Made by a program: the position numbers and the translations under genes
Notes under the pieces: generated by a model
Seen by the model: only the letters and a program-made list of their open reading frames with translations
The model's database searches: none
What the model was told of the DNA's origin: nothing
Shown: piece after piece, positions 1-26,171 of the stretch
Numbering within the stretch: position 1 is the first letter of the stretch
Layout: each line of letters starts with the position of its first letter
DNA from: a bacterium
Lineage (GTDB): Bacteria; Elusimicrobiota; Elusimicrobia; UBA1565; UBA9628
Assembly: GCA_021822495.1 (NCBI GenBank)
Contig: JAKAQO010000005.1
Span: 80,852-144,851, forward strand
Direction: 5' to 3'
DNA: 64,000 bases

Positions 1-3000
1 TATATTTCTACTTATACGTTTGCCAATCTGACCACTTATTATTGGCGCGTAAGAACTATTGATGGGTTCGGCGGAACCAGCCCCTGGTCCACAACCTTTA
101 GTTTTACCACTGATTTCTCAAGTCCAACGGCCGTCGGCGGAAGTTTCGCGACGCTCAACAGTCTCGGGGGGCTTGTTCCAGAAAATCAGGTCACGGTTCT
201 CCAGTCAGGCGTCACTGCTCAGATTAATATTACCGATATCGGTAGCGGGTTCTCCGCCTTTAATTCCTCAAATTATTCCGTCAGGTATTCCACCAACGCC
301 GGCCTCTCCTGGATTTCAGAACCCTTTTCCGCGCTCGCTTTTACGGGCTCTATCGGCCAAACCTCGACTCAAACCTTCACGGCCTACGGTCTTAATCTCG
401 CCGCCTCAACCAATTCTTATGTCTGCGGGGGAATTTCTCCTTGCGGCGCAACCAACCAAGTTGAATTTACTTTTTCCGATCAGGCCCTCAATTTCAGCAC
501 GGCCGGCCCTTTTGCCGTCATTGTAGATACTCATTCAACCGATGTTTTGGTCTCCACGGCCAATGTCGCGCCTTTGGGAATCCCCCAAAACACCTCGGTT
601 GCCTTTATCCGCCTGACCTTGAACAGTCTCACTGGAACCGCACCCTGGACCGGGCTCACGGTTCAAAGGCTCGGCAGTGGAACGGACGCGGATGTTCAAA
701 ACGTCGCCATCTACCGTGATAACGCGGGAACCGGAATATTTTCTCCCTCGGATACTCAAATCACCCAAAATGCGGTCTTTTCGGGGGGAATCGTCAATTT
801 AACAATGACCAATCCCGAGAGTATTACGACCTCGACCAAGACCTATTTCCTTGTCTATACCGCGGCCCCGGGGGCGCTGGTCGGAGATGGGCTCGCGGCG
901 GAAATTACATCAACCGCCTCTTTTACCTTCAGCAACGGATACCAGATGAGTTCGGCCCAGACGACGATTTATCCCTTGATCTCCAGCACCGCCACCGTGG
1001 TCGACGGTCCCAATTATCTCTACATCACTCCGGCGAGCCAAGCCCCCAACGATGCCCCGCCCGGAACAGCCAACATCGAGATGCTTTCTTTAAAAGCCTA
1101 TACGAATACTGGAACAAGCACTCTTTCCAAAATTGTATTTCATCTCCTAGGAACCGGGGCTTCTAATGACATCAGCTCCATCTCCATCTACAGAGACTCA
1201 AACGGCACTGGGGTTTATGCCCCCAATGACAGTTTGGTGACCAGCGGCTCGGACTCCTTTTTTAACGGAGTCTCAACCGTCGCTTTCACGACCACCATCG
1301 CCTCCGAAACCGTGACCACCTCTCCCATTTATTATTTCGTCCTCATCAGCTTGTCTCCGAACGCGCCATTAGGAGATACCTTAGGAATATCTATTTCCAC
1401 TACCTCGGACGTCGAGCTGATAGACGTCTTAGATACGACTACTTTTACGACCAGCCCCGCGGCCTCCTCTCTTTTGACCATTGAATACATCAATACCTTG
1501 AACGTTCAGGGAGTCAACCAAATCCCGTCCTCCCTTTTACAGGGTCAGCAATACGCCATTTTAAAAGCGAGTTTTACGGTTTCGACTGGGGAAACTTCGT
1601 TTAACGGAATCACTATCACGCGCATAGGACTCGGCCATGATTCGGATGTTTCGGCCGTCAGGGTGTGGCAGGACCCCGCTCCACCCGAGACCTTTAACCC
1701 CGCGACCTTTTTGCAGTTGAGTTCAGGAACCTTTGTGAACGGAAACGCGCAGCTAAACTTCCCGCTTCAAACCTTGTCCGCCGGAACCACCTACGTCTAT
1801 TACGTGACCTATAACATTAGTCCCACCGCCCTTCAGGGAGACACCTTGGGCGGAAGAATTACCAGTAATCTCGATATCTCAGACACCAATCCCGGAACGA
1901 CGATTGTCGGCAATTTCTCGATTAATTCGGCCACTTCCCCCGTGGTTCCAACAACCGCAGGGCTTTTTGTCAGCGCTCAAAATGTCGCCCCGAGTGATCT
2001 CTTGCAAGGCGCGACCAATCAACAAATGCTCAATTTGACGATGGATACCACTCAATACTCAGTTCTTTTGGGAGCTTTGACCTTTAATTCCTTGGGAACG
2101 GCTTCTTCTTCCGATATTTCGCGGGTGGAAGTCTACCAAGACCTCGTGGGAAACGGAATTTTAAATACATCGACCGACCCGCTTTTAAGCGCGGTTTCAT
2201 ACCCCTTTATCTCGGGAACCGGCATCATTCCCTTTTCGCCGGGAATCACCATCAGCACTATTCCCATCCGGCTTCTGGTCGCGGTAGACGTTTCAACCGG
2301 AGCCAATTATCTCAACAATGATTTTGGAATCGGAATTTCAACTCCCGCCAATATCTCAATCAACGCGCCCAATTTTGTCGTTCCCTCAACCACCACATTC
2401 CCGGCCGATTCAAGTATTATTCCCATTACGAAAGCCCCGGATGTCATGAGCGTTTTCCCGACTTCCTTGATGGATGTCAACGGCGTCGTTCAAGGCCAAA
2501 ACGCGCCGGCGGCGAAACTGAGTTTAGTCACCCAGCACAGTTCCGTGACCTGGACGACGATTTCCGTTCAAAGAAGCGGCACCCTGCCGGATTCGGGAGT
2601 TGATTCCGTCAATATTTATGACGACGTAGATCAAAATGGTGTTCTTGACTCTTCGGATGTCCTAGTGGGAAGCGCGCCCTTTGTTTCCGGAACAGCCAAT
2701 ATTTCTTTCTCCACCGCGCAACTGGTCAGCCCCGCAGGAGCGGATTATCTCATTACGCTTCAAATTGACCCTAACGCTACTCCGGGAGACACCATTGGAA
2801 TTTCCTTGTCCGGCGTGTCCAACTTTACCGTGTTGCCCCCGGACACCGTCTCGGGTTCAAGCCTTCCGTTTAACTCGGCCTTAGGGCCGGTTCTCAATAT
2901 TAAAACTCCCACTCAACCCATCGTCACTTTCCCGAACGGAGATTATTCCAGCTCCTTTGATTCGGTCGGCTTTATCTGGTATTCAACGGTCGCCGTCGGT

Positions 3001-3855
3001 TCCATTTCCAGCGCGGCCTATGCCGTGGGAACGACTCCCGGGGGAACCGATATCGCGCCGTATACCGCCATTCCTTTTGCGGCGTCTAGTTTCACCGCGA
3101 CCAATCTTCTCCTCTCTAACGGGGCCACTTATTATGTCTCGGTGGAAGCCACCTCTAACTACGGCTTTACCAGCCCGCCGGGAATCAGCCCCGGGTTTTT
3201 GGTTGATTTAATCACCCCAGGGTCGCCGACCAATCTCAGCGCCAATGTCGGCGTAAGCTCGATTTATCTGACCTGGGATCCGGGAACAGTCGGGCCCTCA
3301 GGCGCTTCGGGATATCTTCTCGAATATTCAGACGTCGAACATCCGACCTGGTATAACGCCAAGACCGGAGCGGTCACCGCCCTGGCCGCCGGCCCCCATG
3401 GAACTCTTTCGGCCAATTTCATTCCCTCTTCGCCGTTTTTGTTCAACAATCCGCCGCAAGGAACCCTTCTTTTCCGCGTTAGTTTAGTCAACGGCGCGGG
3501 GGTTCAAAGCGCCCCGTCCAATTCGATCAGGGTTCTCTTTGGAACGCAGTCAAACGCTGGAATATCGAACGTCTCATCCTATCCCAATCCCTTTAACTCA
3601 AATTCCGGAGTCGCGACTATCGTCTACACCTTGGATACTCCGGGGAATGTCTCCATTCAAATCTACAGCGTCTTTGGGAGTCTCGTCAAAAGCCTCTCTT
3701 ATTCTGGTGGAAGCGTGGGGGGGCAAGCCGGCGTCAATACCGTGACCTGGGACGGAACCGACTCAGGCGGACGCAAAGTCTCCAAGGGCATCTACATCGC
3801 CGTCCTCAAAGCCAATGGTATGAGCGTCCAATACAAAATCGGGGTCAATCACTGA
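1..3855 (+). CDS. Large secreted repeat protein with FN3-like and C-terminal FlgD-like domains (5' end outside window)
   Basis: The frame is open from base 1, so the gene is cut by the window edge; at least 1,284 residues are visible. The visible part holds an FN3-like start and then about five related blocks of roughly 155 residues, beginning near nt 560, 1030, 1510, 1980 and 2460. Each block has a 'YRDxxGTGxxSPSD' or 'YDDVDQNGVLDSSDVLV' stretch that resembles a dockerin-type calcium loop. Two FN3-like domains (about nt 2900-3530) follow, then a terminal domain with 'SYPNPFNS', 'VYTLDTPGNVSIQIYSVFG' and 'TWDGTDSGGRKVSKGIYIA'. That terminal pattern is known from FlgD-Ig/type IX-like sorting domains of outer-surface proteins. 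It is probably exported and may be an adhesin or enzyme scaffold; no catalytic domain was seen. It ends 7 bp inside the convergent transposase gene. Confidence 0.85.
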   Translation, partial: YISTYTFANLTTYYWRVRTIDGFGGTSPWSTTFSFTTDFSSPTAVGGSFATLNSLGGLVPENQVTVLQSGVTAQINITDIGSGFSAFNSSNYSVRYSTNAGLSWISEPFSALAFTGSIGQTSTQTFTAYGLNLAASTNSYVCGGISPCGATNQVEFTFSDQALNFSTAGPFAVIVDTHSTDVLVSTANVAPLGIPQNTSVAFIRLTLNSLTGTAPWTGLTVQRLGSGTDADVQNVAIYRDNAGTGIFSPSDTQITQNAVFSGGIVNLTMTNPESITTSTKTYFLVYTAAPGALVGDGLAAEITSTASFTFSNGYQMSSAQTTIYPLISSTATVVDGPNYLYITPASQAPNDAPPGTANIEMLSLKAYTNTGTSTLSKIVFHLLGTGASNDISSISIYRDSNGTGVYAPNDSLVTSGSDSFFNGVSTVAFTTTIASETVTTSPIYYFVLISLSPNAPLGDTLGISISTTSDVELIDVLDTTTFTTSPAASSLLTIEYINTLNVQGVNQIPSSLLQGQQYAILKASFTVSTGETSFNGITITRIGLGHDSDVSAVRVWQDPAPPETFNPATFLQLSSGTFVNGNAQLNFPLQTLSAGTTYVYYVTYNISPTALQGDTLGGRITSNLDISDTNPGTTIVGNFSINSATSPVVPTTAGLFVSAQNVAPSDLLQGATNQQMLNLTMDTTQYSVLLGALTFNSLGTASSSDISRVEVYQDLVGNGILNTSTDPLLSAVSYPFISGTGIIPFSPGITISTIPIRLLVAVDVSTGANYLNNDFGIGISTPANISINAPNFVVPSTTTFPADSSIIPITKAPDVMSVFPTSLMDVNGVVQGQNAPAAKLSLVTQHSSVTWTTISVQRSGTLPDSGVDSVNIYDDVDQNGVLDSSDVLVGSAPFVSGTANISFSTAQLVSPAGADYLITLQIDPNATPGDTIGISLSGVSNFTVLPPDTVSGSSLPFNSALGPVLNIKTPTQPIVTFPNGDYSSSFDSVGFIWYSTVAVGSISSAAYAVGTTPGGTDIAPYTAIPFAASSFTATNLLLSNGATYYVSVEATSNYGFTSPPGISPGFLVDLITPGSPTNLSANVGVSSIYLTWDPGTVGPSGASGYLLEYSDVEHPTWYNAKTGAVTALAAGPHGTLSANFIPSSPFLFNNPPQGTLLFRVSLVNGAGVQSAPSNSIRVLFGTQSNAGISNVSSYPNPFNSNSGVATIVYTLDTPGNVSIQIYSVFGSLVKSLSYSGGSVGGQAGVNTVTWDGTDSGGRKVSKGIYIAVLKANGMSVQYKIGVNH

Positions 3856-4523
3856 TATGAAAAAAAGGGGACAGTCCCCTTTTTGGGGGAAATCTCGAAA
3901 AAGGGGACTGTCCCCTTTTTTGGCCGCCCGATGCGGCGCTCAAGCCCCATTTCCTCTCTTATCTCTTGCTCACGCTCACCACCATACACTATTTCTTTAT
4001 AAAAATAAGCCCTCTCCTGGGCAGAATTTCCAAGAGATAAATAACCTGGGCTTTCCTCCAGAAAAGGGGACTGTCCCCTTTTTCCTGTATAGAATCCATA
4101 GCTGGACCAAGAGTAATCTTCCGGTTTTTTCACGATGGCTGCGCGAACGGGGTTTAACTCAATATAACGGCCACAGAAAAGCAGGCTTCTCTCCGTTGGC
4201 AACAAGACGCTTTTATAACGCCCCTGCCAGAGATGACCCACCAGAGAATTTTTTCCTCGGAAATAATCGGAATATCCCTGCAAAAGTCTTTGCATCGCCT
4301 TACCCAGGTCTTCCGCTTTTTGAACTTGAGCTAAGAAATGAACATGATTTGGCATTAGGACATAATGATACAGGTGAAAAGGATTTTTTTTCTTCGCCCA
4401 TTTCAGAAGAGCTAAGAATTTTTCATAATCTAAATCTTCCTGAAATATCTTCTGTCGGTTATTCCCACGAGCCATCAGATGATAAAACATTCCCTCAAGC
4501 ACATTTCTCCTCTGTCTTGGCAT
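3849..4523 (-). CDS. REP-associated tyrosine transposase (RAYT, Y1_Tnp/IS200-like family)
   Basis: The 224-residue protein has the HUH single-strand nuclease signature 'PNHVHFLA' near residue 60. It also has a downstream 'LLQGYSDYFRGKN' segment with the likely catalytic tyrosine and the family blocks 'HLWQGRYKS' and 'YIELNPVRA'. Members of this family act on REP palindromes. It sits among the GGGGAC(A/T)GTCCCC repeats: one pair lies inside its 3' coding end, another pair lies 70-130 bp upstream of its start, and a single copy lies within the coding sequence. These repeats are translated as 'KRGQSPF' and as two copies of 'KKGTVPFF' at the C-terminus, so the protein tail is made largely of repeat DNA. 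No terminal inverted repeats of an IS are visible. Family call is firm; activity is not known. Confidence 0.93.
   Translation of the reverse strand: MPRQRRNVLEGMFYHLMARGNNRQKIFQEDLDYEKFLALLKWAKKKNPFHLYHYVLMPNHVHFLAQVQKAEDLGKAMQRLLQGYSDYFRGKNSLVGHLWQGRYKSVLLPTERSLLFCGRYIELNPVRAAIVKKPEDYSWSSYGFYTGKRGQSPFLEESPGYLSLGNSAQERAYFYKEIVYGGEREQEIREEMGLERRIGRPKKGTVPFFEISPKKGTVPFFSYQ
3860..3921. repeat. Inverted pair of REP palindromes (REPIN-like)
   Basis: Cores GGGGACAGTCCCC at 3867-3879 and GGGGACTGTCCCC at 3903-3915 have opposite central bases, so they face each other 36 bp apart. Each is flanked by an A-run on the left and a T-run on the right. Both are translated within the C-terminus of the minus-strand transposase. 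Confidence 0.95.
4062..4083. repeat. Single REP palindrome inside the RAYT coding sequence
   Basis: Core GGGGACTGTCCCC (4066-4078) with flanking A4/T5 runs. It is read through in frame as 'KRGQSPF' by the minus-strand transposase gene, between the conserved 'SSYGFYTG' region and the tail. Confidence 0.95.
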
Positions 4524-6181
4524 ATCACCCCTCCTTTCCGCCTAGATTCTCTGCTATATTTCATACGGCAGAAACACAAAAAAAGTTCCCTCAAAAAAAG
4601 GGACAGTCCCTTTCTCGGTTAAAATTCCTAAAAAAAGGGACTGTCCCTTTTTTCTTATTTCTACTTCTCTCTTCCATATCGGCTTCCGCAGCCAGCAGCT
4701 TCTATGCCGGTTCTCCTAACGAAATTTTCCAGTTCGGAGCTGACGCCAGGGCCATGGGAATGGGAAACGCTTATACCGCAATCGCTGGCGGCGCGTCTTC
4801 TCTTTACTACAACCCCGCAGGACTCGGCCTTCTCAATGGTCCCGATATCAGCGCCATGCAGGCCAGTCTCATTGGCGGCGCGGCTTATGAAAATTTATCC
4901 TATGCCCAGAATTTTTCAAAGATGCCTGGAGCTTGGGGAGTTGAAGCCCTCAACATGGGCGTTGGAGGGGCCGAGCAAAGGGACTCTCAAAATAATTTGA
5001 CCGGAAGTTTTGGCTTTCAAGAAACCGGATATGGAGCGGGATTTGGATTGCGAAATGTCGTCATTCCAGGTTTATCATTGGGAGGATCTTTCCAAGGGCT
5101 CAGCCGAAGCTTAGGTGGAAGTTCTTCCGACATGCTCTATGGAGCCAATCTCGGCGCCCAATACGGCCCTTTTTTTGATAATATGGTGACCGCCGGACTC
5201 GTTCTCCAAAACGGCTTTAACGGAGCGCAAAACACCTTTGACCGGTTGCCTACGGTTCTACGCGCGGGCCTGGCCGTCACTCCCATCGACAATCTTCTTA
5301 TCTCCGCGGACTATGGAAACGACGGAGATTATGGAATAGGCGCGGAATATAGAATATGGATGTTCGCCCTGCGAGCCGGATATATGCCGGAAGGCCTCAC
5401 CTTTGGCGCTGGAATCTATTATAAATCAATGGAAGCCGATGTCGCGATGGTCAATGATCCGATTTTTGGAATGGGGGAGCGGTTTTCGATCAACTACCGA
5501 TTCGCGGGGAAGAAAAAAGAAAAGCCTCTCCAGACTTATACCAACAGTTATCTTGACGCCGCGAAAAAAGAACTTAATATTCGCAATTACCTCAGCGCGC
5601 AACTGGCTCTTGAAGAAGCGATGGGGATTGATCCAACCCAGATTCCCCAAATATGGAAGGAAAAACTCAAACTTCTTCAAGCGTTCAATCAATATTTAGA
5701 TCTCAAGAATCGACCGGATGAGGTTAAGACTCTTCTCGCTAATGATCCGGCGGCGATACTCGCCCAAAAATCGATTTTTTCTTATTTAGAGGGGCGTGAC
5801 GGCGATGCGATGATTTGGGCCTCCGTGGCCGCTGGAACGGCTCATAAATCCATGCCCTATATTGACTTTATCAAGACAATGGCTTATCTTACGAGTATGA
5901 AGGTTTCGGAAGGAGATTTGTTGCCGCCGGCCGAATATGTTTCCAAAAAAATGGAGACTGCTCTTCAGGACATTTATCAAAAACGCTTCGCGAATTCAGT
6001 CAGAGATTGCCAACAGGCCATTGTGGTCAACCCGAAAGAATCTTCCGCCTGGACTCGTCTTGGCAGCGCTTATTTTGCCTGGGGACACAAACAAGAAGCC
6101 AAAAAGGCTTATCAAAAAGCCCTGGAGCTCGATCCCAAGGATGAAAATCTTAAGAAATTCATGGAGATCTATATCAAATGA
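4517..6181 (+). CDS. PorV/UPF0164-like outer-membrane beta-barrel protein with C-terminal TPRs
   Basis: The mature part begins after a signal peptide ending 'SSISASAA'. It continues with the PorV/UPF0164 hallmark 'GADARAMGMGNAYTAIAGG' and 'LYYNPAGLG', then alternating barrel strands to about nt 5510, a linker, and TPR-like helices ending 'SAWTRLGSAYFAWGHKQEA' and 'AYQKALELDPKDENL'. The family includes outer-membrane proteins that partner with secretion systems and surface proteins, which suits the neighbouring FlgD-tailed protein. The start is uncertain. The signal peptide 'LKFLKKGTVPFFLFLLLSS' overlaps a REP repeat and has no ATG/GTG/TTG next to it. The only plausible initiator after the RAYT gene is TTG at 4517, which would add about 40 residues ahead of the hydrophobic core. 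The frame stays open back to 3857, antisense to the transposase. Confidence 0.85.
   Translation: MAYHPSFPPRFSAIFHTAETQKKFPQKKGQSLSRLKFLKKGTVPFFLFLLLSSISASAASSFYAGSPNEIFQFGADARAMGMGNAYTAIAGGASSLYYNPAGLGLLNGPDISAMQASLIGGAAYENLSYAQNFSKMPGAWGVEALNMGVGGAEQRDSQNNLTGSFGFQETGYGAGFGLRNVVIPGLSLGGSFQGLSRSLGGSSSDMLYGANLGAQYGPFFDNMVTAGLVLQNGFNGAQNTFDRLPTVLRAGLAVTPIDNLLISADYGNDGDYGIGAEYRIWMFALRAGYMPEGLTFGAGIYYKSMEADVAMVNDPIFGMGERFSINYRFAGKKKEKPLQTYTNSYLDAAKKELNIRNYLSAQLALEEAMGIDPTQIPQIWKEKLKLLQAFNQYLDLKNRPDEVKTLLANDPAAILAQKSIFSYLEGRDGDAMIWASVAAGTAHKSMPYIDFIKTMAYLTSMKVSEGDLLPPAEYVSKKMETALQDIYQKRFANSVRDCQQAIVVNPKESSAWTRLGSAYFAWGHKQEAKKAYQKALELDPKDENLKKFMEIYIK
4593..4653. repeat. Inverted pair of REP palindromes overlapping a signal peptide
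   Basis: Cores GGGACAGTCCC (4600-4610) and GGGACTGTCCC (4637-4647) lie 37 bp apart in opposite orientation. The second copy encodes 'KKGTVPFF', the basic and early hydrophobic part of the downstream PorV-like protein's signal peptide. Confidence 0.92.
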
Positions 6182-6243: not shown

Positions 6244-6257
6244 CTTTGGAGGTTGTC

Positions 6258-8771
6258 ATGGACATATTAATGATTATTTTTATCCCAAGTCTTTTTCTTG
6301 TGTTGGGAGCCCTGATGTTTATCGTCAGCCGGGTCATGGAGTTTTCACAATCCAACCGTTATTTCGCAAAACAACGAGGAAACAGTCTTATGTTTACACG
6401 TTTCATGACTCAAATCGCCATAGCGAAAAGCCAACTGGGAAAAAGGGCCCAGGAACTGGAAGCCCTCTCCATGCGTCTTCAAATGAACAATGAAGAGCTC
6501 GCGAGGCTCAACAATCTCAAGATGAAATTTCTTTCCATGGCGGTTCATGATATTCGAAACCCCTTGACCGCCATTACCGGCTATAGCGATATCCTGTCTC
6601 GCAACAAAAATATTGGTCCGAAAGAACAAGTCCTCTCGAAAATGATCTTGACCGCGACGCGGCAAATCAACCACCTCATGGGCGACTTGACCGATCTGGC
6701 CGTCATCGAAGCGGGAAAATTCAAGATGGAAATGGCGCCCTTTGATCTGGCCGGACTCATCCAAGAAGTCGGCGCGACGCTGGCTCCTGGAGCCTCTAAC
6801 AAAGGCGTCATTCTTTCTGTTCTGGAACCTCCGTCGGGAATCATCATCACCGCCGACCGCTACCGCATTTGGCGCGTTTTGACGAATCTTTTAGGCAACG
6901 CCGTCAAATTTACTCCCTCGGGCGGCCGCGTTGAACTGAGAGCCGAAGTCGCGGCGGGAATGGCCATGATTTCCGTTCAAGATAATGGTCCCGGAATTCA
7001 TCCCACCGAACGCCGAAAAATTTTTGAAAAATTCTACCAGTCAAAGCACATCAAGGATGAAAAGGCCCGCAAGGGCGGCTGGGGGCTGGGACTCGCCATC
7101 GCCCAAGAAATTGTTCAAGCTCACGGAGGGGAAATTGGGGTTGACAGCCGCGGTCTCGGGCATGGATCCACTTTTTGGGTTCGCATTCCTCTTAAAGCTC
7201 GGCGCCCCATTCGCTCTAGCCCCATGCGCCTTTCTCTTGCTTTAATCGGGTTTTTAGCTCTTTCTTTTATTCCGAAAAAAACTGGGGCTCAAACTGTTCC
7301 CTTTCTTGAAAAATCCAAGTTCGAGAAATCCCTAGAAACCAAGGTGGACGGGGTTCTCCTCAATATCCTGGGGCCCAATCGGGCCAAGGTCATCATCAAC
7401 GCGACCTTAAACTTTACCAAGACGGAAAGTTTTCAAACCGAAGGCGCAAGCGTCACAACCACAAAAACCTCGGGGCTACCTTATCTCTGGCAAGAGCCCA
7501 GCAAAACGGCGCAGCCCGAAGAACTTCTTCCTGGAGTGCCGCTTGATTCCGGAGGCCCTGCTCTTCCCATGCCACCGCCGTCAATTAAGGGATATAAAAA
7601 AGAAGATTCCTTTCCCGCCGAATTTATCAAGAGGTTGGATGTCACTCTCATTTTGGACAATTCCGTTAAGGGAAATCGCAGCGCCGAAATCGGCAAAATT
7701 ACATCCGACCTTCTCAATCTCAATCCCAAACGGGGGGATTCTTTAACCGTGGTCCACACCGAGTTTTCTCCTATTTGGAAAACCGTCTGGTATTCTCCGG
7801 CCACTGCGGGCATGCTTCTTAAATATATTTTGACCGGGTTTCTCTTTTTCATGGCCTTGATCGTCATCGCTATCGGATTCATAAAAATCGCCAACGCCAT
7901 GCGCATGATGGCTAACGCCCAAGCTCAGCAAATTTCCATGGAAATGAAGGGACTCGATGGCGAGGGGGGAAGCGGACCAGGAGGGCTTTTAGGACACAAT
8001 ACGCTCATGATTGGGGATCAAAAATCAGGAGAAAACGTCCCTGAGAATAAAAATGAACCCGTCATGTTCGACGTAGGGATGGATCAGGTAGAAACCCTGG
8101 CTCAAATGCTTCTCCCCGAACCGGCCAATAACATTGCCATTGTCGCGTCCCGCCTAACCCCGGATGTTTCGAAAAGACTCATTGAGGCCCTTCCCCCGGA
8201 ACTGGCGACGCAAGTCATCAGCCAACTCGCTCGTCCGCGCTTTATCGATCCGGAAATTATCGTCAACTTAAAGGAAGAGCTGGAACGGCGTCTTTCCGGC
8301 GCGGTGGGAGGCGTTCATTATCTCTCGGAACTCATGTCGGCCGCCAGCCAAAAGAGGCGCCATGAGATGCTCGAAGCCGTTCGCGCGCAAAACCCGAACC
8401 TCGCGGAAGAACTTAGAAAAAGAGTCTTTTTCATCGAGGATCTTTCAAAGCTGAGCCAACAGGAATGGTCATACCTCTTATCCTTGGTCACCTATCAAGA
8501 ATGGAGTGCGGCCCTTCATGAGGGACCCCAAGTGGTCGTCGAAGCCATTAAGCAAAATCTATCGGAAAAAGCCTGGGGGGTTCTTAGCGAAATGATTGAA
8601 ACGGCTTCTCCCAGCATAGAACAAGCGGAAATAGCGCAAGACAAAATCGGTCAAAGCGTCTCGGAACTCATCAAGGAACAGAGAATCAAGACCATCGCAC
8701 CACAATTGGGACTTCAGGTTCATGAATCTCCAATTGAGGAAGAAAAAGGCGCAGAAAGCAACAAAAAGTAA
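6258..8771 (+). CDS. Histidine kinase fused to FliF-like and FliG-like domains
   Basis: The start is ATG 6258 behind the Shine-Dalgarno GGAGG (837 residues); the frame is open further upstream, but that part overlaps the previous gene. Residues 1-28 are a membrane helix. A HisKA H-box 'SMAVHDIRNPLTAITGYSD' (His about 97) follows, then a HATPase with 'QDNGPGI' and 'GGWGLGLAIAQEIVQAHGG'. From residue about 323 a hydrophobic segment ('MRLSLALIGFLALSF') starts a FliF-like region ('KVDGVLLNILGPNRAKVIIN', 'LNLNPKRGDSLTVV') that ends in a membrane helix ('GFLFFMALIVIAIGF'). The C-terminal part is FliG-like ('LTPDVSKRLIEALPPELA', 'GGVHYLSELMSA', 'LAEELRKRVFFIEDLSKLS'). The implied topology (kinase inside, FliF loop outside, FliG inside) is coherent for one chain. 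An internal ATG at 7224 could also start a separate FliF-FliG protein, but it has no Shine-Dalgarno and there is no stop before it. The motAB genes follow. Confidence 0.85.
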   Translation: MDILMIIFIPSLFLVLGALMFIVSRVMEFSQSNRYFAKQRGNSLMFTRFMTQIAIAKSQLGKRAQELEALSMRLQMNNEELARLNNLKMKFLSMAVHDIRNPLTAITGYSDILSRNKNIGPKEQVLSKMILTATRQINHLMGDLTDLAVIEAGKFKMEMAPFDLAGLIQEVGATLAPGASNKGVILSVLEPPSGIIITADRYRIWRVLTNLLGNAVKFTPSGGRVELRAEVAAGMAMISVQDNGPGIHPTERRKIFEKFYQSKHIKDEKARKGGWGLGLAIAQEIVQAHGGEIGVDSRGLGHGSTFWVRIPLKARRPIRSSPMRLSLALIGFLALSFIPKKTGAQTVPFLEKSKFEKSLETKVDGVLLNILGPNRAKVIINATLNFTKTESFQTEGASVTTTKTSGLPYLWQEPSKTAQPEELLPGVPLDSGGPALPMPPPSIKGYKKEDSFPAEFIKRLDVTLILDNSVKGNRSAEIGKITSDLLNLNPKRGDSLTVVHTEFSPIWKTVWYSPATAGMLLKYILTGFLFFMALIVIAIGFIKIANAMRMMANAQAQQISMEMKGLDGEGGSGPGGLLGHNTLMIGDQKSGENVPENKNEPVMFDVGMDQVETLAQMLLPEPANNIAIVASRLTPDVSKRLIEALPPELATQVISQLARPRFIDPEIIVNLKEELERRLSGAVGGVHYLSELMSAASQKRRHEMLEAVRAQNPNLAEELRKRVFFIEDLSKLSQQEWSYLLSLVTYQEWSAALHEGPQVVVEAIKQNLSEKAWGVLSEMIETASPSIEQAEIAQDKIGQSVSELIKEQRIKTIAPQLGLQVHESPIEEEKGAESNKK

Positions 8772-8866: not shown

Positions 8867-8924
8867 CTTTTTTTCTTCGTCATTTCTTCATGATTAAATG
8901 CCGCTTTTGTTCTACCCTATAACT

Positions 8925-9869
8925 ATGAGTGAAAGTCCAAAAGGTTCTATCTTTTCCTCATTAAGGGCATTAGAGGAAGTTCTGGAAGAAACTCCCACTG
9001 CAATACCTACTCCGCAAAACGTTTCTCCCGCTCCTGTTCAAGCCGCACCACCGCCACCCACTCCCACGCCCATGAGTTCAACGCCGCCCGTTGATTCTTC
9101 AAGCGAAGCTCTCAAATCCGTGGAAGCAAAGATTGAAAAAATCGATCAAAAAATTCAGGAATTAGGAAATCTCCCAATCTCGCCAAATCTTGATCGCATT
9201 GAAGCTCTTGAGAAAAACCTACAACAGATGCAGGAGCGGGCCATCCAGGCAGAAGTTGCGCTCAGAGAACGAGAAAAATCCCAAGAAGCCGCAAGACGTG
9301 AGACAGAATCTCTTCTTCAAAATCTAGCATCCCAAAGACGACTCGAAGAATCCGACAGGCAAATGAAGGAGAACCTGTCCTACTGCCGGCACCGCATCGA
9401 GGAATTAGAAGAGCGGCAAGCCTCTCTCAAAATTTCAGATACGCAACAGTCGGAGCATGAGTTTAAATCGCTCTTAAAAAATTTTATGGAACAAATCGAC
9501 CTTAAAACAGCCCCGATTTTAACGTCTCTCCTTGAACTCAAGAAAGAGAATCAAAACCGCGAAAAAGAGAGTCTCAATATGGAAAAAAGGATAGGCCATC
9601 TTGAAACCAAAACCGCTAATAAAAGCCAAGTTGACGCTCTGCGCGAAGACTTCCTCCATTTAAAACAGTCCGTGGAAAAAATTAATTTGGAAACATCGGA
9701 AAAGCTCGATAAAATAACCGCGGCATTAAGCCTATTGTCGCTTAAACTCCACAAAGATAAGGCAACAGAAGAATTAATCATTCTCGATAAAGAGTTTCAA
9801 AAAATACACTCTATTCTCAACGCCAATATTTCCAACTCTCCCAAACAAACAGGAATAGCCCCTGATTGA
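8925..9869 (+). CDS. Proline-rich/coiled-coil protein of the motor-like module
   Basis: The protein (about 314 residues) has a short N-terminus 'MSESPKGSIFSSLRALEEV' and a Pro/Ala/Thr linker rich in PPP and PTPTP (residues about 30-60). Charged heptad-like coiled coil then runs nearly to the end ('VEAKIEKIDQKIQELG', 'LREREKSQEAARRE', 'MEKRIGHLETK'). There is no signal peptide or membrane helix, so it is probably cytoplasmic. It lies between the FliF/FliG fusion and motA, where a structural or linker role for the rotor or stator is possible; this is inference. An in-frame ATG at 8898 would add nine residues. A TATAAC element ends directly before ATG 8925, so the upstream start or an upstream promoter is possible. 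Confidence 0.8.
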   Translation: MSESPKGSIFSSLRALEEVLEETPTAIPTPQNVSPAPVQAAPPPPTPTPMSSTPPVDSSSEALKSVEAKIEKIDQKIQELGNLPISPNLDRIEALEKNLQQMQERAIQAEVALREREKSQEAARRETESLLQNLASQRRLEESDRQMKENLSYCRHRIEELEERQASLKISDTQQSEHEFKSLLKNFMEQIDLKTAPILTSLLELKKENQNREKESLNMEKRIGHLETKTANKSQVDALREDFLHLKQSVEKINLETSEKLDKITAALSLLSLKLHKDKATEELIILDKEFQKIHSILNANISNSPKQTGIAPD

Positions 9870-10669: not shown

Positions 10670-10676
10670 CTTGATT

Positions 10677-11369
10677 ATGAGACGATCACGGCACGAAGAC
10701 CTCGAAAATCAACTCGCGAAATCCGCCCAATGGGCTATTACCTACGGCGATTTCATGAGCTATCTCATGATTTTCTTTCTCATCATGTTCTCTTTTACGC
10801 TCTCCAAATCCGGAGGGAAAACCACGGAAAACGTTAAATATCAGGAATCCTTGATTAAAATCCAGAAAGTCTTTGGGGGAAAAGGAAGCTCCCTGGATTA
10901 CGATCGCCTCATTAAGCGCGAAAAAGAAGAGTCCATGGTGACCCAACTCAAACAGGCTCTGGACAAGAAAGACTTGTCCAAATACGCGAAAATAGAAACC
11001 TGGGATAAAAAAATTCGATTAATTCTCGCTAGCGCGGTTCTTTTCGATTCAGGGCGAGCGACCTTGGCCCCGCGCTCGGAAAAAATTCTGGCCGCCGTCG
11101 CCCAACAGCTTAAGACTTTGGACAACCCCATTCAAATTGAAGGCCATACCGACAACGTGCCAGTTCGCGGCGGACGTTATAAGTCCAACTGGGAACTTTC
11201 GATGGCGCGGGCTTATTCCGTGCTGGTCTTTTTGGAAAAGCAGGGCATCGCGCCTCAGCGCTTATCCGCGATTGGCTACGGCAAGTATCATCCCATTGCC
11301 GACAACAACACCGCGGAAGGACGCGCTAAAAATCGTAGAATCGAGATAGATTTATTACGGACAGAATGA
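10677..11369 (+). CDS. motB: MotB-like stator subunit with OmpA-type peptidoglycan-binding domain
   Basis: The 230-residue protein has one N-terminal membrane helix with the ion-carrying aspartate ('TYGDFMSYLMIFFLIMFSF', Asp25). A plug/linker region follows, and then an OmpA/MotB C-terminal domain ('SAVLFDSGRATLAP', 'IQIEGHTDNVPVRGG', 'NWELSMARAYSVLVFLEKQG', 'AIGYGKYHPIADN', 'RAKNRRIEI'). It is expected to anchor the stator to peptidoglycan while the helix forms the ion path with MotA. ATG 10677 is preferred over TTG 10671, which overlaps the REP side. It is a complete and canonical protein, so the missing flagellar genes are not explained by decay here. Confidence 0.93.
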   Translation: MRRSRHEDLENQLAKSAQWAITYGDFMSYLMIFFLIMFSFTLSKSGGKTTENVKYQESLIKIQKVFGGKGSSLDYDRLIKREKEESMVTQLKQALDKKDLSKYAKIETWDKKIRLILASAVLFDSGRATLAPRSEKILAAVAQQLKTLDNPIQIEGHTDNVPVRGGRYKSNWELSMARAYSVLVFLEKQGIAPQRLSAIGYGKYHPIADNNTAEGRAKNRRIEIDLLRTE

Positions 11370-11382
11370 GGAGAAATTAAAT

Positions 11383-12402
11383 ATGAAAAAGTCATTTGCG
11401 GTTCTATCTTTGAGCCTAGTTTTGTCGACGCTCGCTTTTTCAGCAGTCTCATCGCAAGCGAATAATTCAACAAGCTCTCCCGCCCAAGGGGCCACGGTCC
11501 CACATCCAAAAATTCCTCAGGATCCTTATCTGACAGCTCTTGACGATATCAAAAGTCCCATTCCCTCGGTTCGCTTAGCAGCCGTTCAAGTCTTGTCCCA
11601 AAACCGCAATCCCGCCTCTATCGCGCCTTTGACAAAAGCCCTTTCCGATAAAAGTCCGGCTGTCTGCGCCGCCGCGATTCACGCCTTGGGCCTTTTGAGG
11701 GTTAAAGCCGTGGCTCCAAAAATCGCGCAACTGCTCGCCACTTCCCCGTCTTCCCAAGTGAGGCAAAATGCGGCCGTCGCCTTGGCTTATCTGGCTGACC
11801 CGGCGGCCATCCCCACTTTAATTTCCGCCATATCCGATTCGCATCAAAGCGTTCGCTATGCGGCAATCAAAACTTTGGGCAGTCTCCACGCCCAGGCCGC
11901 GGTACCCGCCCTCATCAACACGCTCAAAAGTTCCAACGCTAATATTCGAGAGACTGCCGCCGCGGCCTTGGGGCAAATTCAATCTCCTCAAGCCTCCTCC
12001 GCTCTTGCCGGTTTGACGACCAATCCCAACATCCAGGTCCGGGAAGCCGCCGTCATCGCGCTGGGCTCGACCGGAGGCAAGGCCGCTATTTCTCCACTTC
12101 TCAAGGCGCTTAAAGACGCGAATTTTTCCGTCAGCCTTGACGCAGCGCGTTCTCTTTCAAAACTGGGAAATTTTAAGGGAAAAAGCGTCGCTCTCAAAGG
12201 ACTTAGCCAAAAAGATCCCTTTCTTAGGCAAGAAGCCGTTACAATTTTAGGAATGACCGGAGGGAAAAAATCTCTCCGGGCTATTGAAAAGCTCTCTAAA
12301 AAAGAAAAGGATCCCGCGACGATTAGCCTGATTGGCTTTGCCGAAGCCCAGATTAAGGGACGCCTCGGAATCAAACCCGCACCGCAATCGCGTAAGAAAT
12401 GA
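11383..12402 (+). CDS. Exported HEAT-repeat protein
   Basis: The 339-residue protein starts at an ATG behind the Shine-Dalgarno GAGGAG and has a clear signal peptide ('LSLSLVLSTLAFSAVSSQA'). The rest is a row of about seven HEAT/PBS-lyase-type repeats of about 31 residues, such as 'VRLAAVQVLSQNRNPASIAP', 'VRQNAAVALAYLADPAAIPT', 'VRYAAIKTLGSLHAQAAVPA' and 'IRETAAAALGQIQSPQASSA'. The family forms protein-binding solenoids. A periplasmic scaffold next to the MotB peptidoglycan-binding domain is a reasonable inference. It overlaps the following cyclase gene by 4 bp (ATGA), indicating translational coupling. Confidence 0.88.
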   Translation: MKKSFAVLSLSLVLSTLAFSAVSSQANNSTSSPAQGATVPHPKIPQDPYLTALDDIKSPIPSVRLAAVQVLSQNRNPASIAPLTKALSDKSPAVCAAAIHALGLLRVKAVAPKIAQLLATSPSSQVRQNAAVALAYLADPAAIPTLISAISDSHQSVRYAAIKTLGSLHAQAAVPALINTLKSSNANIRETAAAALGQIQSPQASSALAGLTTNPNIQVREAAVIALGSTGGKAAISPLLKALKDANFSVSLDAARSLSKLGNFKGKSVALKGLSQKDPFLRQEAVTILGMTGGKKSLRAIEKLSKKEKDPATISLIGFAEAQIKGRLGIKPAPQSRKK

Positions 12403-14414
12403 GACGCCTCTTTGGCCTTTTCTTTTCGTTGGCCCTGAGTTTCCTTTTTATTTTTCTTTATCGGCCGCCCTTATTTAGAATCCAGGCCAACGATGTCTTC
12501 AATAATTTGGAGAATTCCTGGCAGGATTTTCTTTTTCGCCTTAACAAGGATCATTTAAGACGCGGAGACCCCCGCATTATCATTGCCGCTATTGATGACC
12601 CGACCCTCCATCAGTACGGATATCCTCTCCCTCGAATAGTGTACGCGAAACTCCTAGATCGTCTTCGCGAACTTAAAGTCAAAACCGTGGCCTTTGACGT
12701 TCTTTTTCCCGAGCACAGAAAGGGAGATTTTGAATTCGCTCAAGCTCTAGGAAAATTTAAAGAAAACGTTCTCGCTTATGCTTATGATAAAAATAGTTCC
12801 CAACATTTCGTTTTGCCCGCGCCTCCGCTTTATCAAGCCGCAAAAAGTCTTGGGTATGTCAATGTAGGAGATTCCATAGACCCTGATGGGCATATCCGAC
12901 AGTTTCAGATTTTTCAATCTTCTTTTAAAAACCCGAAAAAAAATTCCATGGGAGAAGCTCTCTCGGTTCCGACGCTCGCCTATTTTACCGGGCAACTCTT
13001 TCAAAAGACGACCGGCATCGCCCCAACGGATGCGCATTTCTATCTTAATGTCAGGCCTCCAACTTATGCCAATGATCAGAACGTGTTTTTTTCTTATCCC
13101 GTTTTTTCCATCGCTAAGATTTTAAACAATAAGCTTCCGCAAAAAGAGAAAGACGCCTTGAAAGGCTCTTTGGTTTTAGTCGGTTCAACCGCTCTTTCCG
13201 CTTTCGATCATTATCCATCTCCCTTTAGCGACGTCAGCCCCGGAGTGGAATATCACGCTAACATTCTGGATAATCTTCTTCATCGCGACTGGATGCGCTT
13301 CTTTTCTCCTTTCTATCAGATTCTCATCATCCTCTTATTTATCTGGATTCCCTTTTTCCTAAGACGCGCGCCAACGCAGTGGGAAACGCTCTCGGTTTTC
13401 GGAGTTTTTCTGGCCTGGACTGGTTTTTGCGAATGGCAATTTCTGAAAGGCGTTCGCGTGGAATTCGTCCTTCCCTCCACAGCTCTTCTAACCTCTTTTA
13501 TCGGCGAAACTATCCATCAGGCCTTGACCGAGGGGCGCGAGAAAAAATTCATCAAGAACTTATTCGCTCAATTTGTTTCTCCCGAAGTAGTCGAGGATCT
13601 CGCAAAGAATCCGGATAAAATCAAGCTAGGGGGAGAGAAAAAAGACATGACGGTTCTTTTTCTCGATATCGCCCATTTTACCAGCATCTCGGAAAAGATG
13701 TCGCCGGAAGAGCTCATCAAATTTCTCAACCGCTATCTTTCGCGTTTAAGCCAGGTCATTCACGATCACGGCGGTGTCGTTGACAAATACATTGGAGATT
13801 CCATCATGGCTTTTTGGAACGCGCCCCTTGAGGTCAAATCCCATCGCGTCAAGGCCTGTCTTGCGGCCCTGTCTCTTCAAGACGCCGTTTTGGAACTCAA
13901 TAAGAACCTTCCTTCAAGCATCCCTCATCCGCCTCAAGTCAGAATTGGAATAAACTCCGGCTTTGTCACCGTGGGCCTCACTGGAAGCGAACACAAACTT
14001 CAATATACCGTTATCGGAGACGAGGTTAATTTAGCCTCTCGCCTTGAAGGAGCCAATAAGTTCTTCAAATCACAGACGATGATCAGCGAAGCCGTTTACG
14101 CCGAAGCCAAAGCAGAAATTGAAGTCCGGGAAATCGGAATTATCCGCGTTCTGGGTAAGGAAACTCCCATCAAGACTTATCAGATTTTAGCTCGAAAAGG
14201 GGCGTTGTCTCGCGCCTGGAAAACAGCTCTTCCTATCTACAATCAAGCGCTTCAGGATGTCCGCAATAAAGAATACGTCAATGCCATCGCCCTCTTTGAG
14301 ACTTTCCTTAAAATTATTCCCAATGATGGGACCGCTTCGTTTTATCTCTCCGCATGTAAAAAAGCTCAAGAGAGCACTCCCTGGGACGGAATTATTCATT
14401 TGACCGCCAAATAA
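12399..14414 (+). CDS. CHASE2-domain class III adenylate/guanylate cyclase
   Basis: The 671-residue membrane protein has an N-terminal helix and a periplasmic CHASE2 sensor (about 30-300, 'RIIIAAIDD', 'VAFDVLFPE', 'LVLVGSTALSAFD', 'SPGVEYHANILDNLL'). Three membrane helices follow (about 302-370). The class III cyclase domain has metal-binding aspartates in 'VLFLDIAHFTSISEKM' and 'VDKYIGDSIMAFWNAP', plus 'YTVIGDEVNLASRLEGANK'. A short TPR-like tail ends the protein. It should make cAMP (or cGMP) in the cytosol in response to an unknown extracytoplasmic signal. Translational coupling to the HEAT gene and position after motB suggest co-regulation with the motor-like module. Confidence 0.92.
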   Translation: MRRLFGLFFSLALSFLFIFLYRPPLFRIQANDVFNNLENSWQDFLFRLNKDHLRRGDPRIIIAAIDDPTLHQYGYPLPRIVYAKLLDRLRELKVKTVAFDVLFPEHRKGDFEFAQALGKFKENVLAYAYDKNSSQHFVLPAPPLYQAAKSLGYVNVGDSIDPDGHIRQFQIFQSSFKNPKKNSMGEALSVPTLAYFTGQLFQKTTGIAPTDAHFYLNVRPPTYANDQNVFFSYPVFSIAKILNNKLPQKEKDALKGSLVLVGSTALSAFDHYPSPFSDVSPGVEYHANILDNLLHRDWMRFFSPFYQILIILLFIWIPFFLRRAPTQWETLSVFGVFLAWTGFCEWQFLKGVRVEFVLPSTALLTSFIGETIHQALTEGREKKFIKNLFAQFVSPEVVEDLAKNPDKIKLGGEKKDMTVLFLDIAHFTSISEKMSPEELIKFLNRYLSRLSQVIHDHGGVVDKYIGDSIMAFWNAPLEVKSHRVKACLAALSLQDAVLELNKNLPSSIPHPPQVRIGINSGFVTVGLTGSEHKLQYTVIGDEVNLASRLEGANKFFKSQTMISEAVYAEAKAEIEVREIGIIRVLGKETPIKTYQILARKGALSRAWKTALPIYNQALQDVRNKEYVNAIALFETFLKIIPNDGTASFYLSACKKAQESTPWDGIIHLTAK

Positions 14415-23078: not shown

Positions 23079-25789
23079 ACAAGAACCTTAATCAAATCCT
23101 CAAGACGCGCTTTTTTAGACCGCGCCGTATCATAAAGCAAACGAGTTTCAGAGACGTCTTCCGGCGCCGCCTTTGAAAGGTAATTGGAATCGGAAAGCTT
23201 TTGAGACAATTTACTCAAGTCGCTTTCAACTTTTTGAAGCTCTTTTCCCAGGCGTTCGGCTTCTTTTTTAAAATCAATCAAACCCTCAAGCGGGACATAA
23301 AAGCTAAAGCTTGAGGAAACCGCGGAAGCGACCTTGGCGGACAACCCACCATTTGTGGAGTTAAGAAAAGAAACCTCTTTCCCACCGGTTAACGCGACCA
23401 AATAAGAGAGGTTCTGTTTTAGGAATTTCAGCTCCAAGGAATGTTCGCCTTGACAGATGATTGGAATCTTAAGCCCCGGCGAAATCCCAAGTTGAGAGCG
23501 CAAAGATCTTAAAGAGGCAACCGCTTCAATTAAAGCGCTCATTCCTTTTTGAGTTTCTTCCGTAATTTTAGTTTCCGGAACGCTCGGGAAACGGGAATTC
23601 ATCAAAAAATCCGCCGGTTGAATATCCCATCTCTTTAAGACCGAATAAATTTCTTCCGTCACAAAAGGCATCAAGGGATGAAGCATTTTGACCACGCCAA
23701 TCAAAATTGTCACTAAAACGCGAAAGGCCGTTTTTCGAGCGTTTAAATCAGAACCTTGAAGCCTGAGTTTGGCAAGCTCCACATACCAATCGCAGAATTT
23801 ATCCCACAAAAATTCATACATTTGCTCCGCCGCGCCGGCGAGATTGTAAGCTCCCACCTCTTCTCGAACAGAGGCAATCATCTTTTGATACTCCGATAAA
23901 ATCCAAAGATCCGCCGCCTCCAACGGAAAATCCTGGAGATCGCCCAATTCTTCCGGGCTCACCGCGTTCATCAAGGCAAAGCGCGCCGTATTCCACAATT
24001 TGTTGGTGAAATTACGCCCAGCAATCAGCGAATCTTCCGAGAAAATGATGTCTTTCCCGGGACGGGCCTGGGAAATCAAGGAGAAACGAAGAGCATCGGT
24101 TCCGTATTTCTCCATCATTTGGAGGGGATCCACCACATTCCCCAGGGATTTAGACATTTTTTTTCCCTTTTTATCACGGACAATGCCGTGAATAAAGGCT
24201 TCCGAAAAGGGAACCTTCCCGGTAAAATAGAGGCCCATCATCTGCATCCGGGCAACCCACAAATAGATAATTTCATAGCCCGTGACGAGAATTTGAGTCG
24301 GATAATAGCGCGCGAGATCATCAGTCTTATCCGGCCAGCCAAAAACTGAAAAAGGCCAGAGGGCGGAAGAAAACCAGGTGTCTAAAACATCGGGGTCCTG
24401 GATAAACTCAGAGCCTCCGCAAGCAGAACAGGTTTTTGGTTTTTCGCTCGCGACCACTCCCTTGAGATTAGGAATTTGATGGAAAGGAGTATCTTTCGAA
24501 ATAGCGTTACATTTGAGGCAATACCAGACGGGAATTTCATGCCCCCACCAAATCTGGCGGGATACGCACCAATCGCGAATATCAAGCAACCAATCCCGAT
24601 AAGGCTTTTCCCAGGACACAGGATAAATTTTAAATTGCCCGGCGTCCAGCGCCTTTAAAGCCTCTGCGGCCAAGTCCTTGGTTTTGACAAACCACTGCTG
24701 AGAGAGTAACGGCTCTATAATTTCCTGACAACGGTAGCAAACCCCGACCGCGTGGGGGTGGGGTTCGGTTTTTTCCAAAAGACCTTGGGATTCCAAGTCC
24801 TGAAGAATTTTTTTGCGCGCCTCTTCTCTGGATAAACCGGCATAAACACCGCATTCTTCCGTCATCTTTCCCGCGGGAGAAATGACTTTAAGGCGGGGAA
24901 GCTTGTGGCGAAGCCCCATTTCAAAGTCATTGGGATCATGGGCCGGAGTGACTTTAACTGCGCCTGTTCCAAAAGAGGAATCCACAAAACCATCAGCAAT
25001 GACCGGAATTTCCCGGTTGACGAGAGGCAAGCGCAGTTTTTTTCCAATTAAGGCTTGATAGCGCCGATCGTCTGGATGAACGGCAACAGCCACGTCTCCC
25101 AGCATGGTTTCGGGCCGAGTCGTGGCCACGACTAACCCCGCGCCGCCTAAAACCTCCGGGTAGCGGATATGCCAGAGATTTCCCTTTCTTTCCTCATGTT
25201 CTACTTCAATATCGGATAAAGCCGTTCCGCATCTCACGCACCAATTGACCAAACGCTCTCCGCGGTAAAGAAGTCCATCGTCCCACAATTTTTTAAACGC
25301 ATGAAAAACGGACGTTTTCCGTTTTTCATCCATGGTAAAAGCCTCGCGGCTAAAATCAAGCGAACACCCCAGTTTTTTCAGCTGGCCTAAAATTGTTTCT
25401 TTGCAATGAACCGTCCAATCTTCCATGCGACTGGTAAAAGCCTCGCGGCCAAGCCGAATCCGGGAGGTGTTTTCCGTCTTTAAAATTTTTTCCATCACGG
25501 TTTGAGTCGCAATGCCGCCGTGATCGGTTCCGGGAACCCAGCAGAGGTCTTTCCCCGACATTCTCTTTGAGCGAGCCAAAAAATCCTGAATTGTGTTATT
25601 AAGCGCGTGCCCGATATGAAGCGCTCCCGTTACGTTCGGAGGGGGGATGACCAGGGAATACGGCTCTCGATTTAAATCGGAATGAGAGTTAAAAATCCCG
25701 GATTTAGCCCAGTTGAGAACCCAACGAGCTTCGACATCCTTGGGGATATAGGCTTTGTCCCAGGTTTTTATTTCGGTCGTTTCATTCAT
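23075..25789 (-). CDS. valS: Valyl-tRNA synthetase
   Basis: The 904-residue class I synthetase has the HIGH motif as 'PPPNVTGALHIGHALNNTI' and KMSKS as 'KKGKKMSKSLGNVVDP'. Its editing domain has 'ATTRPETMLGDVAVAVHP', and 'CNAISKDT' and 'CSACGGSEF' are Cys pairs of a zinc site. The C-terminal coiled-coil tRNA arm is present ('AERLGKELQKVESDLSKLSQ'). It charges tRNA-Val. It overlaps the response regulator upstream and the exported protein downstream by 4 bp each. Confidence 0.98.
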   Translation of the reverse strand: MNETTEIKTWDKAYIPKDVEARWVLNWAKSGIFNSHSDLNREPYSLVIPPPNVTGALHIGHALNNTIQDFLARSKRMSGKDLCWVPGTDHGGIATQTVMEKILKTENTSRIRLGREAFTSRMEDWTVHCKETILGQLKKLGCSLDFSREAFTMDEKRKTSVFHAFKKLWDDGLLYRGERLVNWCVRCGTALSDIEVEHEERKGNLWHIRYPEVLGGAGLVVATTRPETMLGDVAVAVHPDDRRYQALIGKKLRLPLVNREIPVIADGFVDSSFGTGAVKVTPAHDPNDFEMGLRHKLPRLKVISPAGKMTEECGVYAGLSREEARKKILQDLESQGLLEKTEPHPHAVGVCYRCQEIIEPLLSQQWFVKTKDLAAEALKALDAGQFKIYPVSWEKPYRDWLLDIRDWCVSRQIWWGHEIPVWYCLKCNAISKDTPFHQIPNLKGVVASEKPKTCSACGGSEFIQDPDVLDTWFSSALWPFSVFGWPDKTDDLARYYPTQILVTGYEIIYLWVARMQMMGLYFTGKVPFSEAFIHGIVRDKKGKKMSKSLGNVVDPLQMMEKYGTDALRFSLISQARPGKDIIFSEDSLIAGRNFTNKLWNTARFALMNAVSPEELGDLQDFPLEAADLWILSEYQKMIASVREEVGAYNLAGAAEQMYEFLWDKFCDWYVELAKLRLQGSDLNARKTAFRVLVTILIGVVKMLHPLMPFVTEEIYSVLKRWDIQPADFLMNSRFPSVPETKITEETQKGMSALIEAVASLRSLRSQLGISPGLKIPIICQGEHSLELKFLKQNLSYLVALTGGKEVSFLNSTNGGLSAKVASAVSSSFSFYVPLEGLIDFKKEAERLGKELQKVESDLSKLSQKLSDSNYLSKAAPEDVSETRLLYDTARSKKARLEDLIKVLV

Positions 25790-26163
25790 GGTTTTAGATG
25801 AGATTTAATCTTAGCGATTAAACGGTTGATATCAATAGGTTTGAGCACGTATTCGACCGCGCCCGCGTCAATTCCGGCCAAACGATCAATTTTTTCTGTC
25901 GAAGAAGTAAATAAAATAACGGGAATATCCTTGGTCTTTGGATTTTGCTTGAGTTTTCGGCAAATGTCCAGACCGTTAAAATCCCGGATATAGAGGTCCA
26001 GCAAAATCACGTCGGGTTTGGCCGCTTCGGCTTTTTGAACGAAATCCTCTCCGGGAACCTCAAAAGCCTCAACCTCCATCCCGGCCCAGCCAATCGCGGC
26101 TCCAACCGCTTCGCGTAAAAGCTCGTCATCGTCCACCAAAAGAATTTTGGCTTTCTTTTCCAT
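25786..26163 (-). CDS. Single-domain response regulator (receiver only)
   Basis: The 125-residue CheY-like receiver has an acidic pocket 'LLVDDDELLRE', the phosphoacceptor aspartate in 'DVILLDLYIRDFNG', the 'ILFTSST' threonine/serine switch and the lysine in 'YVLKPIDINRL'. There is no output domain. The cognate kinase is not adjacent; the kinase fusion at 6.3 kb is one candidate in view but far away. Translationally coupled to valS. Confidence 0.94.
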   Translation of the reverse strand: MEKKAKILLVDDDELLREAVGAAIGWAGMEVEAFEVPGEDFVQKAEAAKPDVILLDLYIRDFNGLDICRKLKQNPKTKDIPVILFTSSTEKIDRLAGIDAGAVEYVLKPIDINRLIAKIKSHLKP

Positions 26164-26171
26164 ATTTCACC

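Follow-up and report, generated by a model that had tools for sequence, protein, structure and literature searches.

The window analysed here, a 64,000-nucleotide stretch of an Elusimicrobiota genome, carries a single frame of 837 codons (6258..8771) in which a histidine kinase is followed by a signal-like segment, the RBM3 domain of FliF, a transmembrane helix and the middle and C-terminal domains of FliG (all features are on the forward strand unless a minus sign is given). The frame starts at the ATG at 6258, with a GGAGG ahead of it at 6248-6252, and its stop ends at 8771. The first 27 residues form the N-terminal transmembrane segment of the kinase (6258..6338). Pfam searches, judged by each family's own cut-off, placed a HisKA domain at residues 88-153 (6519..6716; 4.4e-12), with the phospho-acceptor H97 in FLSMAVHDIRNPL, a HATPase_c domain with intact N, G1, F and G2 boxes at residues 200-313 (6855..7196; 3.4e-27), the FliG middle domain at residues 612-682 (8091..8303; FliG_M, 2.1e-10) and the FliG C-terminal, or torque, domain at residues 707-811 (8376..8690; FliG_C, 5e-14). 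Between kinase and FliG lie a signal-peptide-like segment (residues 323-345, 7224..7292), a periplasmic domain resembling the RBM3/collar of FliF (residues 351-508, 7308..7781), where YscJ_FliF_C matched residues 457-503 with 25.6 bits against a cut-off of 23.8, and a transmembrane helix assigned from hydrophobicity (residues 523-545, 7824..7892). FliG_N remained slightly below its cut-off (24.4 vs 25). When a profile made from an alignment of 29 homologs was run against solved structures, it matched FliG (1lkv, 1.7e-36) and FliF (9yh6, 1.5e-6; 8z5s, 1.4e-5; 6scn, 3e-4). Pfam and the solved-structure matches thus agree with the original prediction of one 837-codon frame with HisKA/HATPase, FliF-like and FliG-like parts, and the topology proposed in it, with the kinase inside, the FliF loop outside and FliG inside, works for this chain. 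Because AlphaFold2 modelling of the whole chain from three near-identical sequences (that of the window and those of two relatives) gave a mean pLDDT of 38, the fold assignments rest on sequence profiles and not on the structure model.

The share of FliF in the protein comprises only the last periplasmic domain and the membrane helix that follows it. Compared with E. coli FliF, the common part begins at the helix before RBM3, and the ILSPIVGNGNIHAQVTAQLDF pattern of the E. coli protein is kept as LLxLLGPNxAKVVVxATMDF in the 29-row alignment. PF01514, which covers the YscJ-like RBM1/RBM2 domains, had no match in the whole genome to which the window belongs (the control matched in 4), so that of the FliF-type periplasmic region first described, the RBM3/collar is present and is the only part present. 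In FliG, the position of R281 is occupied by K in 27 of the 29 aligned rotor sequences, and the torque-helix charges K264, the D288/D289 pair and R297 are not kept, Q or E standing in the place of D288. A survey of 340 species genomes of the phylum found a FliF-FliG protein in one chain in 153 of them (about 45%), FlhA in 5 and FliM/FliN (FliMN_C) in 6, 4 of these above the cut-off; the window's own genome had neither FlhA nor FliM/FliN. In its full flagellar sense the name rotor does not apply, since the genome is without FlhA, FliM/FliN and a full FliF. This genome contains three FliG clusters, and each of them, whether on contig C7, C11 (the window) or C15, includes a MotA of its own. The cluster on C7 (L040, 4076-12741) encodes a PorV/TPR protein, a FliG-like protein with a C-terminal TPR, a 1080-aa protein without Pfam match, MotA and MotB, and the one on C15 (L041, 3080-14386) carries FliF-FliG together with three kinases, CheY-like and OmpR-like regulators and a divergent MotAB.

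The genes around the fused frame point to a stator and to the cell surface. At the left end lies a large surface protein (1..3855) whose frame runs past the edge of the window and whose C-terminal tail (residues 1012-1098 of the ORF 547-3852) resembles the type A tail of T9SS substrates, the TIGR04183 model scoring 23.9 against a cut-off of 23. It is followed by a PorV/PorQ-like outer-membrane barrel with a C-terminal TPR (4667..6181), which reached 73.4 bits with the PorV family, below the cut-off of 90, whereas its relatives scored 93.9 and 153.6. Downstream of the fused gene come a coiled-coil protein found at the same position in related clusters (8898..9869), a MotA stator with the equivalents of P173 and P222 (9866..10645), the true start of which may be an inner ATG near 9908, and a MotB stator with a plug, an OmpA peptidoglycan-binding domain and the equivalent of D32 (10671..11369). 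Then follow a HEAT-repeat protein (11383..12402), also present after MotB in a near relative (L031), and a protein with CHASE2 and nucleotide cyclase domains (12399..14414), whose position is kept in the same relative and which makes a second-messenger link to the motor genes possible. In the fused clade the order giant surface protein, PorV/TPR, kinase, FliF-FliG, coiled coil, MotA and MotB is constant; in the sister family MotA stands between kinase and FliF-FliG. About 25 loci show this set of neighbours, and some of them are more distant clusters without the kinase. The residues of the ion channel are strictly conserved, MotB D32 in 22/22 readable copies and MotA P173 and P222 in 39/39. 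In contrast, the place of E. coli MotA E98 is K or R in 29 of 39 sequences of the window's MotA and its family, possibly a charge swap at the rotor contact. Together with the loss of D288/D289 from FliG, this indicates that the contact between rotor and stator has charges of its own and does not copy the flagellar one exactly.

We then considered the kinase and its possible partners. There is no sensor domain between its N-terminal transmembrane segment and HisKA, and the H, N, G1, F and G2 boxes are kept in the 28 aligned sequences (one being truncated at the H box), as befits a catalytically complete enzyme that sits at the membrane. With a profile of this kinase group, the kinases of the clusters scored 389-466 bits and other nearby kinases at most about 170. 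Those of the fused and sister clusters are therefore one orthologous group, and the kinase is a dedicated partner of the cluster. No receiver protein was found beside the window's cluster; the nearest, and the sole one found by search in the window, is a stand-alone CheY-like protein at 25789-26166 (-), which is a possible partner. Stand-alone CheY-like genes adjoin the cluster in two other loci (L042 and L043). Winged-helix (Trans_reg_C) proteins with no detectable receiver domain lie beside MotB in relatives (L042 6502-7230 and L052 11532-12254). In Bacteroidota, the phosphorylated CheY domain of PorX binds GldL (PMC10951265), which offers, by analogy, a close working parallel for a kinase that acts on a motor. 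A PglZ protein of the PorX type is absent from the window's genome and was found in one of the 44 genomes of its family. That the kinase exerts control over the motor, instead of just reading its state, we put at even odds.

Next, we examined the joint between kinase and rotor across the fused genes. No start codon with a ribosome site is conserved at this place, and in two loci (L008 and L009) the joint contains no ATG, GTG or TTG at all, so that the rotor part can only arise by reading through; an internal translation start was accordingly rejected. The residue at position -1 of the joint is A in 15/15 fused rows and that at +1 is Q in 14 of them, the exception having A followed by E. The segment begins with basic residues, continues with 10-21 hydrophobic ones and has a polar end. 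It has the same look in separate rotor genes, and its hydrophobicity (19-residue means) is 1.1-2.15, below the 2.2-2.8 of the genuine transmembrane helix in these proteins. Judged from these residues, a putative signal peptidase I cut would fall between A344 (7287-7289) and Q345 (7290-7292). Why a linker that stays uncut should retain A-Q is not obvious, and we therefore lean slightly towards a polyprotein that signal peptidase I cuts into kinase and rotor. A precedent is Bradyrhizobium FbcH, a cytochrome b-c1 polyprotein in which an internal signal peptide marks the place where a single chain is cut into two membrane proteins; its proteins are unrelated, and the cut in the kinase-rotor gene is only predicted. 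The alternative is that the three-part chain stays intact, with the kinase attached covalently to each rotor subunit, the former signal peptide serving as a second membrane helix, and torque or assembly being passed directly to the kinase. A frame open in 15 species with no conserved internal start, the feasible in-out-in topology and a kinase without a sensor of its own are all consistent with it. However, the signal-peptidase-like site weakens the idea, since A and Q are kept at the joint in nearly all fused rows just as in the separate genes, the segment is short and weakly hydrophobic, and the link is missing from the sister family and from one genome of the fused clade (G189, see below). 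We consider the intact chain possible but doubtful. The earlier reading as a single chain thus holds for the conserved open frame, while the cleavable look of the signal peptide makes two mature proteins at least as likely.

To what machine might the products of the cluster belong? Several findings connect it with type IX secretion. A SprA-like protein is encoded elsewhere in the same genome (C4:401115-406796), with 48% identity over nearly the full length to a protein of another genome (G196) that matches SprA_N, and PF14349 had no match in the window's genome. SprA-like proteins were found in 42 of the 44 genomes of the family and also in genomes of the phylum that have no FliF-FliG rotor, so that the tie to T9SS rests on the gene neighbourhood and the shared kinds of protein and not on co-occurrence. 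A search for GldL matched none of the 44 family genomes and no control genome either. On the evidence as a whole, a link between the rotor-stator and a T9SS-like surface system is reasonably probable, and that the cluster encodes a non-flagellar rotor-stator we hold with good confidence. The account of the whole that we would place somewhat above even chances is a rotor-stator that works without a flagellum in the service of a T9SS-like surface system and has an active, dedicated kinase made as part of a polyprotein.

The way in which such a machine could work is suggested by flagellar and T9SS biology. Ion flow through MotAB would push on FliG, and the rotor would form a turning ring whose RBM3 collar lies in the periplasm. 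Across this compartment the motion would be passed on to the PorV-like protein and the surface protein and drive the export or the surface movement of the giant protein, in gliding or adhesin movement, the role that GldLM has in Bacteroidota. Since two adjacent genes have merged in the window's clade, kinase and rotor come in a 1:1 ratio. Signal peptidase I would probably cut the product at A344/Q345 and leave a membrane-held kinase, whose signal could reach the motor by way of a CheY-like receiver, in a manner similar to that of PorX and GldL. In full, this is an ion-driven rotary machine in which peptidoglycan-anchored MotAB turn a minimal, one-chain FliF(RBM3)-FliG ring and power T9SS-type export or adhesin movement without flagella, a picture that we put forward tentatively, a little short of an even chance, and whose putative function would be gliding, secretion or adhesin movement. 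Alternatively, the cluster could be a mechanosensor rather than a mover, the stators and the rotor feeling how strongly the surface protein is loaded and the kinase reporting surface contact, with movement secondary. This proposal fits the constant presence, in this type of cluster, of a kinase that lacks a sensor, beside a giant surface protein and outer-membrane neighbours. Nevertheless, distant FliF-FliG clusters exist without such a kinase (L074, L075; L059, L071, L072), which implies that the core works without it, and we regard a primarily sensory role as unlikely.

A third explanation is that the genes are the relic of a degenerate flagellum, of which FliF, FliG and MotAB have been left over. 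Every part is indeed a flagellar homolog, and a few species of the phylum retain FlhA and FliM/N. A relic would decay, yet about 40 columns are invariant across the 29 rotor sequences, MotB D32 and MotA P173/P222 are intact, the neighbours are constant and new, and there are several paralogous clusters per genome. These results make a relic very improbable.

The fusion itself is a property of the lineage. The same frame is open in three families of one order, the two nearest relatives among public contigs (L031 and L032) having 86-89% identity in the rotor part and the twelve further fused rows mostly 36-41%, plus the divergent L053. The joint at 7190-7240, which had been doubted, is therefore genuine, and an assembly error or a missed stop can be dismissed with near certainty, since 15 species in independent assemblies share the fusion down to 36% identity. 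Mapped on a tree of 45 FliF-FliG proteins, the distribution of the fusion takes two changes, for which a single gain and a single loss are the simplest account. In G189 (L021/L052), which lies inside the fused clade, kinase and rotor are encoded by two genes that overlap at ATGA, as translationally coupled genes usually do, a state most simply explained as loss of the fusion. In the sister family (f8) the orthologous kinase has a gene of its own, after which come MotA and FliF-FliG in that order. Thus, although the fusion is conserved in 15 species, the two separate genes whose existence in relatives was to be looked for also occur, and a covalent link is dispensable. To FliF-FliG the kinase is an addition, which became fused in one clade only, where two adjacent genes became one. 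In two further genomes of the window's genus (G224 and G225, 97% and 94% complete) only weaker paralogs were present and the fused gene was not found, which suggests patchy loss or transfer. The viral contigs scanned contained no relative, and a plasmid search returned ordinary FliG only.

Comparison with known systems shows which part of the cluster is new. With the flagellar motor it shares FliF RBM3 and the C-terminal membrane helix, FliG M/C, and a MotA/MotB pair with ion-channel residues and an OmpA anchor. It differs in that RBM1/RBM2, FliM/FliN and an export apparatus are absent, FliF and FliG form one chain, a kinase stands in front, and PorV-like and T9SS-tail proteins are neighbours. 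A natural fusion of FliF with FliG(M) is known in Chlamydiaceae, bacteria that are not thought to be flagellated; it keeps part of the SctJ-like region, is without the SpoIIIAG-like (RBM3) domain and has FliG M only (PMC4768692). The window's protein is the opposite, with RBM3 kept, FliG M and C, plus MotAB and the kinase. GldLM/PorXY of Bacteroidota (PMC8986121, PMC10951265) resemble the cluster in an ion-driven rotary motor, as proposed here, beside PorV-like and T9SS-tail proteins, and resemble the genome in a SprA-like translocon and a two-component signalling link. In contrast to them, the motor parts of the window are MotAB and FliF-FliG, the kinase is in the rotor's own gene, and the genome has no PorX of the PglZ type. 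The AglRQS gliding motor of Myxococcus also uses MotAB-type proteins without a flagellum, but is not known to have a FliG/FliF rotor. AglRS belong to a generic (TolQR/ExbBD-like) clade (PMC12505986), whereas the stator of the window best fits flagellar MotA/MotB models and has the OmpA anchor. That survey of MotAB relatives makes no mention of Elusimicrobia, FliF or fusions (PMC12505986), and no published account of the kinase-rotor fusion or of the cluster was found in the open literature, bioRxiv preprints and most subscription papers being outside its scope. Since FliF and FliG in one chain are widespread in the phylum and known in Chlamydiaceae (PMC4768692), the novelty claimed at first for the protein narrows to the kinase and the context, and does not extend to FliF-FliG.

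In teaching, FliG and MotAB are presented as flagellar components. In this phylum, where flagella are almost absent, about 45% of the species genomes encode their core, and its company is new and constant. If the proposal is true, the cluster would be a natural minimal motor of one rotor chain and one stator pair, useful for studying the origin of the flagellar motor, what RBM3 rings do alone, and the ways in which a rotary motor may drive gliding or secretion across the outer membrane. Through the fused kinase there would also be a direct handle on whether two-component signalling reads or controls the state of a motor.

Repeated elements also lie among these genes. An IS200-like transposase gene (Y1_Tnp, RAYT-type) occupies 3849-4523 (-), and the palindrome GGGGACAGTCCCC is present in six perfect intergenic copies, at 3867, 6188, 6225, 8786, 15139 and 20871, some copies being read in frames as KKGTVPFF. 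Together, transposase and palindromes look like a REP/RAYT family.
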